A stretch of DNA of 44,061 bases, from positions 1-44,061 of the forward strand of contig REDR01000038.1 of the NCBI GenBank assembly GCA_007693385.1. Direction: 5' to 3'. Of this stretch, positions 16,778 through 24,854 are shown in pieces (positions within the stretch are counted from its first letter, which is position 1; the number at the start of each line of letters is the position of its first letter). A program made the translations under genes and the position numbers. The notes beneath the pieces are model-generated. The model was not told the origin of the DNA. It saw only the letters and a program-made list of their open reading frames with translations, and ran no database searches. This DNA comes from Anaerolineaceae bacterium (GTDB lineage: Bacteria > Chloroflexota > Anaerolineae > Aggregatilineales > Phototrophicaceae).

Positions 16778-18376
16778 ATGCAAACGCTTGACGTATTCGG
16801 CCTTGATCCGCTGTCTGTACTCATCGTCGCTCCGGCGCTGGGTGCCTTGCTGGTCGTGGCCTTACCAGATAATAATAAATGGTTGGCGCGGTGGGTGTCG
16901 CTGGTGATTTCACTGGGCATCGGCCTGCTAGCCACCATCGTATTCTTCGAGTATGACCGCACCGAGCCGGGCTATCAGTTCGTGACCAATGTTGATTGGT
17001 TCAATCTGATCGGCGCATCTTGGCATGTCGGCATAGATGGCATCAGTGCTTCTATGGTGTTGCTGACGGGCATTCTCGTCCCGTTGGCGATCTTAATAAG
17101 CTGGGAAGTCGAAGATTTGGCGAAGGTGCATCTCGCGCTGATCCTGTTCTTCCAGACCGGCTTGATGGGCGTGTTCGTCGCGCTGGACTTGATGATCTTC
17201 TTCCTGTTCTACGAGTTGAGCCTCGTGCCCATCTACTTCTTGATTAACCAGTGGGGCGGCAAGAATCGCAAGTACGCCTCGACCAAGTTCTTCATCTACT
17301 CGATGGGCGGCACGCTGGGCATGTTGCTGGCGACGCAGTTAATCGGCTGGACGGCGGGCACGTTCGACATCGCTGAACTGTCGGTCATCTGGCCTGCCGG
17401 TGAGTATGCCAACGACGGCATCTTTCTGGGCATCAGCGTAGCGACGGTCAAGGCGCTGACGTTCATCGGTTTCTTCATCGCGTTCTGCATCAAAGTTCCG
17501 GTGTGGCCGTTCCACACATGGCTACCGGACGCGCACGGCGAAGCGCCGACGGCGGGTTCGATGCTGTTGGCCGGTGTGATGCTCAAGCTGGGCGCGTATG
17601 GTTTCATCCGGCTGGTCATCCCGCTATTCCCGGATGTGTGGGTGTCGCAAATTGACCTGTTCGGGTTGGCGTTCACGGTGGCCGGTTTGTTCGCGTTTCT
17701 GGCGATGCTCGGTATTGTGCTGGGCGCGTTCGCCGCTTTCGGCCAGAACGACATCAAGCGGCTGGTCGCGTATAGCTCGGTGAACCACATGGGATTTGTG
17801 GCGCTGGGTATCGCGGCGATGGCCGTCGCTTACGGGCAGATGTACGTCGATGGTGCGACGGCCTTCGGGCAGGATGGCATCATCGCCGCCAATGGCGCGG
17901 TGTTGCAGATGTTCAACCATGGCCTTAGCTCGGCGGGGATGTTCTTGTTGGCCGGTGCGATCTACCACAAGACGCACACCCGCGACCTGCGCGATTATGG
18001 CGGGCTGTGGGTCAAAGCGCCGATTTATGGCGGCGTGTTTATCTTCACCAGCATGGCGAGCTTGGGGTTGCCGGGCTTAAACGGCTTCGTCAGCGAGTTT
18101 CTGGTGGTGCGCGGTAGCTGGCCGGTGTTCACCGTCCTCACCGCCGTGTCGATGGTCGGTCTGCTGTTCACCGGTGCGTATATCCTCAAAGGCATACGCG
18201 CCACGTTACACGGGCCATTTAACATGCGCTGGCGGGATACCCGTCTGGAAATCGAAGTGCGTGAACTTATCGCTATCGCGCCGTTGATGGTCTTAATGCT
18301 GGTGACGGGCATCTTCCCGAACTGGATTTTGCCGATCATCAACGACTCGGTCACGCGGATGATGAACGGATTTTAA
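16778..18376 (+). CDS. nuoM: NADH-quinone oxidoreductase subunit M, copy 1 (canonical)
   Basis: A 532-residue antiporter-like proton pump. It keeps the full set of channel residues: E146 in LFYELSLVPIYFLI, K239 in FCIKVPVWPFHTWLPDAHGEAPTAG (written in parts), K270 in VMLKLGAYGFIR, and the HTRDLRDYGGL loop after helix 12. The end of helix 12 is IYHKTHTRD, where many NuoM have a glutamate. The second NuoM gene follows 15 bp downstream. Confidence 0.95.
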   Translation: MQTLDVFGLDPLSVLIVAPALGALLVVALPDNNKWLARWVSLVISLGIGLLATIVFFEYDRTEPGYQFVTNVDWFNLIGASWHVGIDGISASMVLLTGILVPLAILISWEVEDLAKVHLALILFFQTGLMGVFVALDLMIFFLFYELSLVPIYFLINQWGGKNRKYASTKFFIYSMGGTLGMLLATQLIGWTAGTFDIAELSVIWPAGEYANDGIFLGISVATVKALTFIGFFIAFCIKVPVWPFHTWLPDAHGEAPTAGSMLLAGVMLKLGAYGFIRLVIPLFPDVWVSQIDLFGLAFTVAGLFAFLAMLGIVLGAFAAFGQNDIKRLVAYSSVNHMGFVALGIAAMAVAYGQMYVDGATAFGQDGIIAANGAVLQMFNHGLSSAGMFLLAGAIYHKTHTRDLRDYGGLWVKAPIYGGVFIFTSMASLGLPGLNGFVSEFLVVRGSWPVFTVLTAVSMVGLLFTGAYILKGIRATLHGPFNMRWRDTRLEIEVRELIAIAPLMVLMLVTGIFPNWILPIINDSVTRMMNGF

Positions 18377-18391
18377 TAGGATAGGATTGAG

Positions 18392-20227
18392 ATGATCGAC
18401 TCATTTTCGTTCCCGGTTCTCAGTGCCATCATCTTCATCCCGGTCTTTGCCGCCATCATTATCTTATTCATGGATAATGAAAAACAGCGCGATCTGATAC
18501 GCGGTGTTGCCATCACGACGGCTTCGGTGTTGCTGGTGCTTTCCGGTTTTGTCTACTTCGGCTATAACGCGGAGGTGGGCGGGGATAGCGGCCTGATTGC
18601 CCGACAAGCTGTTTGGGGGCAACTCAGCACGCAATACCGTGAGACAGGGGAGATAGACCTTGATGTTATTGAGGGGCTAGAGGCGTTCGACGCGGCGGAA
18701 ATTGCCATCTTCGAGCGTTTCCCCGAATACGCTGAGTACGTCGGCAGTATGCTGTTTGAGCATGGGCTGGCTTTTGAAGAAAAATACACATGGATCGCCC
18801 CGTTGGGCATCAGCTATCACGTCGGCGTGGACGGACTCAGCGCCCCGATGGTGCTTTTGACCGGCATGGTGGCGGTGGCCGGTGTGCTGATTTCGTGGCG
18901 CATCGAAGACCGCATACGCGAGTTCATGGCGTTCTTCTTGCTACTGGTGGCGGGCGTCTACGGGGTGTTTATCTCGGTGGATATGTTCCTGCTGTTCTTC
19001 TTCTATGAGTTGGCGATCTTCCCGATGTATCTATTGATCGCGGGGTGGGGCTGGGTGAAGTTGCGAGAGTACGCCGCGATGAAGCTGACGCTGTACATCC
19101 TCATCGGATCAGTGGTGGCTTTCGTCGGGGCGCTGGCAATGGTGTTGACCGCGAGCGCGTTCTTCACGACAGAGGAGGGCGCGGCGGCGTTGGAAGCGGC
19201 CAAGGCGTTCGGCGTTGTCAGCGCGGACTCGGGCACGCTCAGCTTTGACATCCGCCAATTGACGCTGGCGGCGGACTTAGGCGCGTTCGACGCGGCGGGC
19301 TACTTCGGCGTTGAGGCGCTGACATTCGCCAAGTTCTGGTTCCCGTTCATCTTCATCGGCTTCGCTAGTCTGGCCGGTATGTTCCCGTTGCACAACTGGT
19401 CGCCGGATGGTCACGTCGCCGCGCCGACTGCGGTCTCGATGATCCACGCGGGCGTCCTGATGAAGCTGGGCGCGTATGCCGCGCTCCGCCTGAGCGTGCA
19501 ATTGTTGCCGGAAGGCGCTATCGCGCATCTGCCGTGGATCGTATTCCTGACGCTGATTAACGTGGTGCTGGGGGCGTTCATCGCGTTCCGCCAGCGCGAC
19601 TTCAAATACGTGATCGGCTTCTCGTCGGTCAGTCATATGGGGTTGGTCAGCATGGGTTGGGCGTCGATGAACGTCATCGGCTATACCGGCGCAGGCTTGC
19701 AGATGTTCAGTCATGGCGCGATGACGGCGCTATTCTTCGGCTGTGTCGGCATGGTGTATGACCGCGCCCACACCCGCGATATTCCCAGTCTGGGCGGCTT
19801 CGTCAAGCGAATGCCGTGGGTGGCGGTGGCCTTCATCGTCGGCGGTTTGACCAGTATGGGGATGCCGGGATTAAGCGGCTTTATCGCTGAATTCCCGATC
19901 TTTATGGGTATGTTCGCCGCGTCAGATAGCATCTCGCTGACGGTTGGTTCAGTCACGTTGACCAACTACTACTCTATTCTGGTGATTATCGCCGCGATTG
20001 CGATTGTGGTCACGGCGGCCTATGTGCTGAGGGTGACAGGTCAAGTGTTCTTCGGGGAATTCAACGAAGAGCGTTATGGCGATGTCACCGACATCACCAT
20101 CACTGACCGCGCTATCCTGATTTTGCTGGGCGTACCATTGATTGTATTGGGCGTTTTCCCGCCGATCATGGCGCCAATGGTTGAGTCGGGCGTTGTGCCG
20201 GTTATCGCAATGCTGGGAGGGATGTAG
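18392..20227 (+). CDS. nuoM: NADH-quinone oxidoreductase subunit M, copy 2 (divergent, lacks the central lysine)
   Basis: A 611-residue second NuoM. E206 in FFYELAIFPMYLL and K358 in VLMKLGAYAALR are kept, but the broken-helix-7 segment reads GFASLAGMFPLHNWSPDGH, so the lysine that corresponds to K239 of copy 1 is Leu327. Two loops are enlarged: residues 57-133 (acidic, about 60 more than copy 1) and 256-305. Helix 12 ends MVYDRAHTRD. It is a true NuoM by length and motifs, but whether its channel conducts protons in the same way is doubtful. Paired with the long NuoL lateral helix, it suggests a complex with four antiporter-like subunits. It ends two bases before the nuoN GTG. Confidence 0.93.
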   Translation: MIDSFSFPVLSAIIFIPVFAAIIILFMDNEKQRDLIRGVAITTASVLLVLSGFVYFGYNAEVGGDSGLIARQAVWGQLSTQYRETGEIDLDVIEGLEAFDAAEIAIFERFPEYAEYVGSMLFEHGLAFEEKYTWIAPLGISYHVGVDGLSAPMVLLTGMVAVAGVLISWRIEDRIREFMAFFLLLVAGVYGVFISVDMFLLFFFYELAIFPMYLLIAGWGWVKLREYAAMKLTLYILIGSVVAFVGALAMVLTASAFFTTEEGAAALEAAKAFGVVSADSGTLSFDIRQLTLAADLGAFDAAGYFGVEALTFAKFWFPFIFIGFASLAGMFPLHNWSPDGHVAAPTAVSMIHAGVLMKLGAYAALRLSVQLLPEGAIAHLPWIVFLTLINVVLGAFIAFRQRDFKYVIGFSSVSHMGLVSMGWASMNVIGYTGAGLQMFSHGAMTALFFGCVGMVYDRAHTRDIPSLGGFVKRMPWVAVAFIVGGLTSMGMPGLSGFIAEFPIFMGMFAASDSISLTVGSVTLTNYYSILVIIAAIAIVVTAAYVLRVTGQVFFGEFNEERYGDVTDITITDRAILILLGVPLIVLGVFPPIMAPMVESGVVPVIAMLGGM

Positions 20228-21836: not shown

Positions 21837-22130
21837 ATGACAGACGGTAAGACACCCGCCAGACAACGGGCCAAGAACCTGAGTTTAGCCGCCGTTGCCG
21901 GGCAGTCCGGTTGTGCGACGGTCATCATCGTTTTTACGGCGGTTTTCGTCGGGTTATGGCTCGATGCGCGTTTTGACCAGGGCGGATTGTGTACGTTCAG
22001 CGTGTTGATCCTCAGCATCCCGTTCAGCTTATTCGTGATGTTGCAGATCAGCCTGAACGCGGTCAAGCGCATCACGCCGCCTAGCGTGGACACTGATGAC
22101 ACATCGGAAACAGAGGAGGAAATAACTTGA
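21837..22130 (+). CDS. atpI: AtpZ/AtpI-like ATP synthase accessory protein
   Basis: A 97-residue protein with two membrane helices (about 26-43 and 52-73) joined by a short loop containing WLDARFD, and an acidic tail. Position immediately before atpB, length and two-helix layout match the AtpI/AtpZ (gene 1) family, which assists c-ring assembly or Mg/Ca transport. The motif GLWLDxxF is common in the family. Identification relies on context as much as sequence. Confidence 0.8.
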   Translation: MTDGKTPARQRAKNLSLAAVAGQSGCATVIIVFTAVFVGLWLDARFDQGGLCTFSVLILSIPFSLFVMLQISLNAVKRITPPSVDTDDTSETEEEIT

Positions 22131-22167
22131 TTGCGATGAAGGTGCTTTGTTTGAAAGGAGGACGGAT

Positions 22168-23766
22168 GTGAAGGATCCTCGCTTAAGAGGTTGTGCCTTT
22201 TTGATCGTCTTCGTGCTGTTCGCGGCGCTTTGTGGCTGGATTACATTCTTCTTGATGCCGGGTACTGGTACCGGTGTCGCTTTGCCAGTTATCGAAGTGC
22301 CGGGCGAAACCGTCTCTTATGGCGGCTTCTTCGGCATGAACTTAACCAATACGATCATTGGTACGCTTGTAACGAATTTACTGCTCATCATCATCGTGGG
22401 CGTGCTGTGGCGCGTGTCGCGGGGGTGGACGAGAGACGTGCCGGGTCGCTGGCAGGGTAGCTTCGAGGTGTTCATCACCACGTTCCGCAACTTCTGCGAT
22501 GGCATCGGTGGCGAAAAACTCCGCAAGACGCGCTCGCTATGGTATCTTGTGGTGACGATTTTCTTCTTCCTGCTGGTGGCGAATTACATGAAGCTGTTGC
22601 CCGGCGTGGAAACCGTCGGCAAGATGCACTGTGCCTATGCCGGACAGAGTGGCTTCGCCATGACTCGCGGCGCGAATACCCCCTTCGGCAACTCTTACCG
22701 CCTATGGGTGGATGAGCCGCTGAACGCCGGTGCATCACAGTCCGCACAGATGGAAGAGTGGTGTAACGACTACTTCAAGCGTGGCTATGTCCCTGAAGAC
22801 GGCTTCGCGGTAGAAACCGCCGCCGAGATCAACCGCGCTAACGAGGTGTTCGGTGCGTTGATCGGTCAATTACCCGACACCGAAGACCACGATGAACTAT
22901 CGGCTGAATATGCCGCGCTGGTCGAAGAGGCTGTCGCCGCCGACGAGGCCGGTGAGGTTAGTGTCGTCGCCCGCCGTGCGGAAATCGTCGAGGGCACGAC
23001 ATACGACGACGCCGTGAACTACGTGCGTTACGTCGAGCATCGCGTTGAACACGCGCAGGCACTCGCCGCGTTGACGCCGCAGATCGAAGCGCTGGAAACC
23101 GCGCTGGAAGCCGACGAAATCACCAGCGAGGAAGCCGACGCGATCAATAGCGAGCTATCCGACCTGCGCGATGCGTTCAACGTCGCCAATACCCAGATAC
23201 GCTATCCGTTCGCTACGCTGATATTCGACGAGGATCAACTCTCCACGTCGGCGCGTCCGTACATCTTCCACATCACGCCGTTCGTGCGTGGCCCGGCTAC
23301 CGACCTCAGCTTCACGATTGGTCTGGCTATTCTGGCTATCGTTGTGGTACAAATCTACGGCGTGCGGGCATTGGGTCCGGGTTACTTCGAGAAGTTCATC
23401 AACCTGAGCGCCGTCGGCAATGCTGGCAAGCGCCCGCTTGGTCTGATCGACTTCATCGTCGGGCTTATCGAGATCATCTCGGAAATTGGTAAAATCGTCA
23501 GTCTGGCCTTCCGTCTCTTCGGTAACCTGTTCGCGGGTGGTGTCGCGCTGATGGCGGTGACGTTCATCTTTGCGATGCTGATGCCGGGTGTGATTTACGG
23601 CCTTGAGCTGATTATCGGCGCGGTGCAGGCGCTGGTGTTCGCGGTTCTGACGCTGGTCTTCAGCGTGCAGGCGATGGAAAGCCATCACGGTGACCACGAC
23701 GACCACCCACACCACGATGAACATGAAGCACATGCAGAACTTCCGACTGTTGAAGTCGAAAAATAA
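22168..23766 (+). CDS. atpB: ATP synthase Fo subunit a with a large extracytoplasmic insertion
   Basis: The frame is open from TTG 22147, but AAAGGAGG (22154-22161) lies inside that stretch, so GTG 22168 is the start, giving 532 residues against about 240-330 usually. The a-subunit core is intact: helices near 10-30, 58-83 and 122-145, then ITPFVRGPATDLSFTIGLAI (about 369-388), and the essential Arg449 in LAFRLFGNLFAGG, then VQALVFAVLTLVFSVQAM. Between the LLPG end of the early helix and the TPFVRGPATD helix sits an insertion of about 225 residues (147-371) with two cysteines (155, 199) and long Glu/Ala-rich helices. By the normal topology it is on the outer side. The C-terminus ends in a His/Asp-rich tail (about 505-523). 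Confidence 0.93.
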   Translation: MKDPRLRGCAFLIVFVLFAALCGWITFFLMPGTGTGVALPVIEVPGETVSYGGFFGMNLTNTIIGTLVTNLLLIIIVGVLWRVSRGWTRDVPGRWQGSFEVFITTFRNFCDGIGGEKLRKTRSLWYLVVTIFFFLLVANYMKLLPGVETVGKMHCAYAGQSGFAMTRGANTPFGNSYRLWVDEPLNAGASQSAQMEEWCNDYFKRGYVPEDGFAVETAAEINRANEVFGALIGQLPDTEDHDELSAEYAALVEEAVAADEAGEVSVVARRAEIVEGTTYDDAVNYVRYVEHRVEHAQALAALTPQIEALETALEADEITSEEADAINSELSDLRDAFNVANTQIRYPFATLIFDEDQLSTSARPYIFHITPFVRGPATDLSFTIGLAILAIVVVQIYGVRALGPGYFEKFINLSAVGNAGKRPLGLIDFIVGLIEIISEIGKIVSLAFRLFGNLFAGGVALMAVTFIFAMLMPGVIYGLELIIGAVQALVFAVLTLVFSVQAMESHHGDHDDHPHHDEHEAHAELPTVEVEK

Positions 23767-23793: not shown

Positions 23794-24045
<252 letters not shown>

Positions 24046-24059
24046 TTGAGGTGGTCATG

Positions 24060-24854
24060 ATGCGTATGAATAAGAGACTAGCGTTGATGGTCGCCGTGTT
24101 GGTGATGCTGTTCGCGGTATCGCCGGCGATGGCGGCGGAGGATCCCGGGCCGCTCGAAGCGCTCGGCATCAATCTGGGCTTCCTCATCGCGCAGATCGTC
24201 AACTTCGGCCTGATCTTCTTCTTCTTGATGTACTTCCTGTGGGGGCCGATGACCAACCGGTTAGACGAGCGCTCCAAGAAGATCGAGAAGGGACTAGAAG
24301 ACGCGGCACGGGCGGCGGAAGCGCGGCGCAATGCCGAAGCGGAAGCCGACAAAATCCTCGCTCAGGCGCGGATGGAGGCCACTCAGGTGGTGGACGAAGG
24401 GCGTGATCGTGGCGAAGAGATGGCGAAGTCCATCGAAGCGGAAGCCCGCAAGGAAGCGGAGAAAATCCGCGAAGATGCGCGTATCGCCGCGCAGGGCGAG
24501 ATCAGCAACGAACTGGCGAACATGCGCGGGCAGGTCAGCACGATTGCTGTCGCTGTGGCGCAACGCCTGATCGGTGAAGAACTGGACGCCAAGAAGCAAC
24601 AGGCGCTCATCGACGACTTCTTCAGCAAAGTACCGGCGGACGCTAAATCACTGACCGGTTCGGTGGAAGTGGTCAGCGCCATGCCGTTGAGCGATAGCGA
24701 GCAGACCAAGGTCAAGAAGGCTATCGGCGCGGACGATGTGACGTTCACCGTGAACCAGAACATTCTCGGCGGTTTGATCGTGCGCTCCGGTGATCGTGTG
24801 ATCGACGGCAGTGTGCGCCGCGAGTTAGATGAACTGGCCGGGCGTATCGGCTAA
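24060..24854 (+). CDS. atpF: ATP synthase subunit b fused to the C-terminal part of delta
   Basis: About 265 residues, where b is normally about 160. GAGG (24048-24051) fits ATG 24060 or 24057. The N-terminus (residues 3-26) looks like a signal peptide ending SPAMAAEDPG. It is followed by the b membrane helix (GINLGFLIAQIVNFGLIFFF, about 36-55), the WGPMTNRLDERSKKIE neck, a long charged coiled coil, and a typical b end QRLIGEELDAKKQQALIDDF. After it, about residues 199-261 read VEVVSAMPLSDSEQ, then NQNILGGLIVRSGDRVIDGS, which is the C-terminal domain of delta/OSCP. The delta N-terminal helical bundle is absent. It is the last gene before a strong terminator; the F1 genes do not follow. Confidence 0.93.
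   Translation: MRMNKRLALMVAVLVMLFAVSPAMAAEDPGPLEALGINLGFLIAQIVNFGLIFFFLMYFLWGPMTNRLDERSKKIEKGLEDAARAAEARRNAEAEADKILAQARMEATQVVDEGRDRGEEMAKSIEAEARKEAEKIREDARIAAQGEISNELANMRGQVSTIAVAVAQRLIGEELDAKKQQALIDDFFSKVPADAKSLTGSVEVVSAMPLSDSEQTKVKKAIGADDVTFTVNQNILGGLIVRSGDRVIDGSVRRELDELAGRIG

Follow-up and report, generated by a model that had tools for sequence, protein, structure and literature searches.

The window analysed here is a stretch of 44,061 nucleotides (positions 1 to 44,061 of contig REDR01000038.1) from an Anaerolineaceae bacterium of the order Aggregatilineales (class Anaerolineae, phylum Chloroflexota), whose genome comprises 3.59 Mb and is 96.85% complete. A run of nuo genes is followed by an AtpI-like gene, atpB, atpE and a fused b-delta gene, and the F1 genes for alpha, gamma, beta and epsilon are found on another contig. 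Two starts of atpB are considered, a GTG at 22168 with a strong Shine-Dalgarno sequence (AAAGGAGG) directly upstream and a TTG at 22147; residues are numbered here from the TTG, which adds 7 to the numbering from the GTG, and C162, C206 and R456 in this text are C155, C199 and R449 in the latter. Conservation refers to two alignments, A2 with 44 rows (the window's AtpB and 43 relatives) and A3 with the 33 long-loop rows that remain when 11 of the 43 relatives, with a segment shorter than 120 aa, are left out. The features of the locus are as follows.

21837–22130, forward strand: AtpI-like small membrane protein (PF09527 at 18.4 bits, under the cut-off of 26.6)
22168–23766, forward strand: atpB, ATP synthase subunit a (532 aa from GTG 22168; 539 aa from TTG 22147)
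22309–22347, forward strand: outer N-terminal strands, residues 55–67 (55–61 and 64–67), before the first core transmembrane helix (DSSP of the model)
22606–23274, forward strand: extracytoplasmic domain, residues 154–376 (223 aa), the loop joining the LLPG and TPFVRGP helices
22618–22710, forward strand: base of the domain, predicted strands within residues 158–188 (AlphaFold models; consensus VESVGxxHCA...GYP...LYVD)
22630–22632, forward strand: Cys162, first cysteine and 9th loop residue (present in all 33 rows of A3 and in 34 of the 44 of A2)
22762–22764, forward strand: Cys206, second cysteine (present in all 33 rows of A3 and in 33 of the 44 of A2)
22786–23028, forward strand: poorly conserved, predicted helical stretch, residues 214–294 (low top-residue share, occupancy 0.43 over 33 rows)
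23032–23106, forward strand: predicted arm helix 1, residues 296–320 (block pLDDT 93–98)
23125–23202, forward strand: predicted arm helix 2, residues 327–352 (block pLDDT 96–98)
23254–23280, forward strand: predicted closing strand, residues 370–378, running into the TPFVRGP helix (AlphaFold models)
23512–23514, forward strand: Arg456, the essential arginine of subunit a, in the FRLFGN helix (invariant in 44 of 44)
23806–24045, forward strand: atpE, subunit c (PF00137 at 64.4 bits, cut-off 24)
24051–24854, forward strand: b-delta fusion, 267 aa (PF00430 at residues 45–174; PF00213 at profile positions 98–169 of 172)

The nuo genes include two NuoM-type genes in tandem (16778–18376 and 18392–20227), both over the TIGR01972 cut-off. 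The product of the second, 611 aa long, has about 65 residues (near 60–124) where 8qby_M has 4 and about 62 residues (near 255–316) where 8qby_M has 33, and these extra stretches appear acidic by eye.

Apart from its outer domain, the AtpB of the window is a normal F-type subunit a. It shares with this family (PF00119; TIGR01131) the core helices, the essential arginine, the a-c-b gene order and the alignment with solved chains, and differs from it in the 223-residue outer domain, which splits the PF00119 match (108.1 bits, over the curated cut-off of 33.9) into two separate stretches. Like R456, the residues R381 and D386 of the TPFVRGP helix do not vary in any of the 44 aligned relatives, in line with the statement of the first-pass annotation that the arginine and the rest of the subunit are intact. 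When the AtpB model was aligned to known structures, rows 1–46 were all ATP synthase chains (Z 8.9–19.0). The best match was to subunit a of Chloroflexus aurantiacus (model residues 24–511 to chain 9itm_T, Z 19.0, 255 aligned, rmsd 4.6), in which the N-terminal helix region is also aligned (9itt_Z, model 14–511 to chain 12–304), and the E. coli chain 6oqr_a gave Z 15.8 (244 aligned, rmsd 5.3). Two NCBIfam equivalog models remain under their cut-offs (TIGR01131, 81.7 vs. 102.6; NF004481, 97.5 vs. 227), which are annotation thresholds and define neither a residue nor a fold; because the Pfam match, the fold and the arginine all agree with subunit a, we ascribe these low scores to the insert. The N-ATPase (alt_F1F0) models are likewise under cut-off in the window genome (TIGR03306, 62.3 vs. 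302.1; TIGR03321, 60.6 vs. 224.7; TIGR03324, 636.5 vs. 750.5). A second ATP synthase as the owner of this AtpB was not found, the genome having a single match each for gamma, b and delta and a single alpha-beta pair; a third ATP-synt_ab match is located on contig C118.

At the other end of the protein, the C-terminal tail (23677–23763) is rich in histidine and acidic residues, and the last 40 residues of the 57 order-like subunits a contain 2–9 histidines. For Pseudomonas aeruginosa, PMC12796488 reports a metal ion bound by the tail of subunit a at the cytoplasmic channel.

The outer domain occupies the 223 residues between LLPG, which ends at residue 153, and TPFVRGP, which starts at residue 377. 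The first-pass annotation had described a stretch of about 225 residues between these two helices, containing two cysteines and missing from E. coli-type subunits a; the open frame and its coordinates are as described, both cysteines are present, and the alignment to solved chains agrees with the absence from E. coli-type proteins. In the known plan of subunit a, this loop lies outside. There are no Lys or Arg residues in 37–68 and nine in 88–132, a distribution that, by the positive-inside rule, places 88–132 in the cytoplasm and the insert outside. Together with the position in the subunit a fold and the alignment to solved subunits a, this corroborates the outward orientation originally proposed for the loop. 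The N-terminal strands 55–61 and 64–67 of the model may join the outer sheet of the domain, and the residues flanking them, E54 and N68, are invariant in 44 of 44 rows. The loop has a GC content of 0.599, slightly above that of the parts before (0.540) and after it (0.566), and a GC3 of 0.717 compared with 0.706 and 0.687; there is no clear compositional sign of a recent gene fusion or import.

An AtpB match was present in 38 of the 41 genomes of the order, from which 36 AtpBs were extracted (G004 and G020, the latter with the fragment L037, were left out, and L008, L014 and L024 were replaced by the longer versions L038–L040). All 36 contain the loop, with lengths of 54–280 aa, which rules out an assembly or frameshift artefact in the window, and the loops of 16 AtpBs from the same class measure 32–95 aa. 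The comparison was extended by 151 genomes drawn across the phylum, 144 of which yielded a subunit a, and by 46 named relatives (L091–L136), 42 of them with Chloroflexota-type titles (mostly Anaerolineae, some Aggregatilineales) or, in the case of L107, a title that seems mistaken, and four Parcubacteria/Paceibacterota, whose membership in the order we set from names and similarity, placing 12 of them outside. After identical sequences and the fragments L037, L118, L126, L224, L225 and L240 had been dropped, 213 distinct loops were counted: the 57 order-like loops have a median of 139 aa, and 47 of them reach at least 120 aa, and the 156 other loops range from 0 to 159 aa (median 17), with three quarters at 48 aa or less and three at 120 aa or more. 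What had first been described as an insertion is indeed an extra stretch, but rather an extreme expansion of a length-variable outer loop than a one-off event.

Three AtpBs from other classes of the phylum (L087, L088 and L089) have loops of 145, 159 and 136 aa and lie far from the order in the tree, which means that long loops arose at least once more. In the loop-free AtpB tree with midpoint root, the order-like AtpBs do not form a clean monophyletic group, as the common ancestor of the 57 order-like tips also holds 20 others (support 0.874). The four Parcubacteria-type loci have loops of 8–12 aa. A profile built from A3 matched 96 of 151 genomes of the order, once in each and in frames of 364–594 aa, and 2 of 301 genomes of the phylum, namely the window's own and one of the same family. 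Being derived from long loops, the profile overlooks diverged ones, and the draw of 301 genomes seems to include very few of the order; the lack of matches elsewhere is therefore weak evidence that the domain is restricted to the order, all the more so as other phyla are represented by the four Parcubacteria loci. Many genomes of genus g17 are listed without a match to the profile and one (G439) with it; L035 of this genus has a 185-aa loop with two cysteines. A record titled Pleurocapsa minor, a cyanobacterium (L107), contains a Chloroflexota-type AtpB with a 132-aa loop, and its title appears to be wrong.

Conservation is distributed unevenly within the domain. In the 33 long-loop rows, the top residue has a mean share of 0.51 and 0.48 in the two parts of the base, about 0.15–0.17 in the stretch 214–294 and 0.30 in the arms, compared with 0.51 in the N-terminal transmembrane part, 0.56 in the cytoplasmic loop and 0.70–0.83 in the channel helices of the same proteins. 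Total loop length correlates with the length of the part behind the second cysteine (r = 0.91) and weakly with the spacing of the cysteines (r = 0.32), from which we conclude that a conserved clamp bears an arm of changing length.

The number of cysteines is even in all 213 distinct loops (none in 123, two in 87 and four in three), and in the rest of the same frames it is odd in 33 of the 57 order-like and 54 of the 156 other sequences; these counts do not translate into a probability, since related sequences are not independent. Two cysteines are present in 53 of the order-like loops, four in three and none in one (L027, whose loop measures 54 aa), and the other loops have either none (122) or two (34). 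In 47 of the 53 order-like loops with two cysteines, the first is located at loop position 9, most often followed by the second 39 residues later. In the remaining six, the first cysteine comes much later, at position 39–54, and the pair is therefore possibly not homologous. The even counts are strong, if indirect, evidence for the disulfide that had been suggested from the window alone, three VKOR genes in the window genome also favour it, and we infer that Cys162 and Cys206 are probably bonded. The four cysteines in the loops of L012, L013 and L015 suggest a second disulfide.

The loop is modelled as a folded domain, with a small strand base at the membrane and an antiparallel helical hairpin. 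AlphaFold gave a mean pLDDT of 84.7 and a pTM of 0.76 for the full-length protein and 88.7 and 0.84 for the domain alone, with closely similar elements in the two models; the inputs were small (44 and 33 sequences), and in our judgement helical hairpins may reach a high pLDDT easily. In the full-length model, 21 of the 23 ten-residue blocks in 151–380 have a pLDDT of 84–98, the other two being 211–220 (76) and 271–280 (61). The loop has predicted strands at 158–162, 168–174, 184–188 and 370–378 and predicted helices at 200–211 (bearing Cys206), 225–240 and 248–267, followed by two short ones and the hairpin 296–320/327–352. Long helices forming a coiled coil had also been proposed. By a heptad score of our own, which is not a coiled-coil predictor, the proposal is supported for the two arm helices, whose scores were matched by 218 (296–320) and 29 (327–352) of 5000 shuffles, and not for the other two helices compared, whose scores were reached by 1069 (225–240) and 3041 (248–267).

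No Pfam family exceeded its cut-off in the loop (best GvpG, 17.0 bits vs. 30.6), and a search of the PDB by sequence with the domain gave no match at E 1. Foldseek gave none at E 0.001 (best E 0.82), in a search that barely probed the strand base, and the best match of a second fold search (Z 5.0 over 64–71 residues) covers helical parts only, which does not imply that the fold is new. Among the open-licence PubMed Central matches listed, titles and the starts of abstracts do not name such a domain in subunit a. The solved subunit a chains among the matches listed have at most 286 residues and are too short to accommodate a folded outer domain as large as this one. C. aurantiacus, which provided the best structural matches (9itm, 9itj and others), also has two cysteines in the outer loop, which measures about 52 aa (L175, the letters of which agree with parts of the chain) compared with 223 in the window. 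Judging from the chain lengths, 20–41 residues are missing within the modelled range of 9itm_T, 9its_Z and 9itj_T, and these are probably the outer loop.

The only b match of the window genome is fused to the C-terminal domain of delta alone, and further b or delta genes, including the N-terminal domain of delta, were not found in this genome. A b-like frame is present in 42 of the 46 named loci, and 36 of these encode a one-frame b-delta fusion; b and delta are separate in L131 and L136, and the four Parcubacteria-type loci (L132–L135) have b only. The mycobacterial chain 7jg5_d also combines b and delta, but comprises 445 aa, with a delta part that we take to be full length, compared with 267 aa and the C-terminal domain alone in the window. 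C. aurantiacus differs in having a separate delta. Its 18 deposited entries contain 36 a and 72 b chains altogether, which amounts to two a and four b in each, and the enzyme reportedly has two a subunits.

Taken together, the computations support a conserved strand base at the outer mouth of subunit a, with some 40 residues between its two cysteines, followed by a helical hairpin arm of very variable length. Our preferred reading, held tentatively and at somewhat less than even likelihood, is that the domain is an extracytoplasmic cap built into subunit a that acts as a stator cap or brace. We favour it because conservation is concentrated in the base, at the points where the chain exits the membrane and enters it again. 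With a conserved base and a variable arm, conserved contacts should be made by the base rather than by the tip of the arm, at which they are unlikely given the large variation of the arm in both length and sequence. A disulfide between Cys162 and Cys206 would hold the base in place next to the proton inlet, on the outer face of the stator, and the role of the domain would be mechanical, stiffening subunit a and holding its outer neighbours, which may be the N-termini of b or another a.

Alternatively, the loop may reflect tolerated growth at a permissive site that lengthens by drift, with the disulfide and the hairpin merely preventing harm to the enzyme. The graded lengths (54–280 aa in the order and 0–159 aa outside), the long loops of L087–L089 in other classes, the very poor conservation of the middle part and the extra stretches in the neighbouring NuoM-type subunit are all consistent with such growth. 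Drift would account well for the variation of the arm but less well for the base, where both cysteines and several other residues are conserved; considering also that 47 of the 57 order-like loops have at least 120 aa and that the fold is predicted with confidence, we regard this explanation as a serious but unlikely one. The domain might instead work by its surface charge, gathering protons or excluding other molecules at the outer half-channel, in which case composition would count more than sequence. All 57 order-like loops are net negative, with −0.037 to −0.261 charges per residue over a five-fold range of lengths (net −29 in the loop of the window's AtpB, in a comparison confined to these loops), and from the anatomy of subunit a the loop would join helices on the side of the outer half-channel. 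However, some loops are weakly acidic, and an effect of charge requires neither a disulfide nor a hairpin, and we consider an acidic screen rather improbable.

A more far-reaching possibility is that several stators surround one rotor, with at least two a subunits that each have a separate b-delta stalk and whose outer domains are joined beneath the c-ring. The two a and four b chains per C. aurantiacus entry, the sole b of the window genome with its fused C-terminal domain of delta and the frequent one-frame fusion among the named loci are compatible with this arrangement. The authors of PMC12229609 argue that the N-terminal domain of delta limits the stalks to one, and they built multi-stalk enzymes after its removal; they also state that every ATP synthase known to them has one a subunit, a statement against which the two a chains per C. 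aurantiacus entry stand. Still, in C. aurantiacus delta is a separate subunit and the loop measures about 52 aa, so that two a subunits need no domain of the kind described here. Furthermore, N-ATPase-type b subunits have a delta-like end, TIGR03321 matches residues 45–262 of the window's fusion under its cut-off, and to our knowledge N-ATPase-type enzymes are not known to have several a subunits; overall, we doubt that the domain joins stators in this way. It would be bolder still, and in our view quite improbable, to see the Anaerolineae enzyme as a natural multi-stator machine in which delta lacks its N-terminal domain, every b ends in a delta stub and, in Aggregatilineales, disulfide-locked domains with coiled-coil arms tie at least two a subunits together outside the membrane, under the c-ring. 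The first-pass annotation had suggested that the domain could brace the dimer, gate proton access or contact complex I. Contact with complex I or another respiratory complex would fit the position of the Fo genes directly after the nuo genes, but this is gene neighbourhood alone, and as nothing in the sequence points to complex I, we hold such a contact to be very improbable.

Few parts of the bioenergetic machinery are as conserved as subunit a, and its outer domain in this order explains why curated annotation models under-score atpB. If the domain is functional, it would give the stator an additional layer on the outside and offer a handle on the proton inlet. In combination with the lack of an N-terminal domain of delta, it poses a testable question about the number of a subunits in the enzyme; should there be several stators, more protons would be used per ATP, and ATP could be made at a low proton-motive force.
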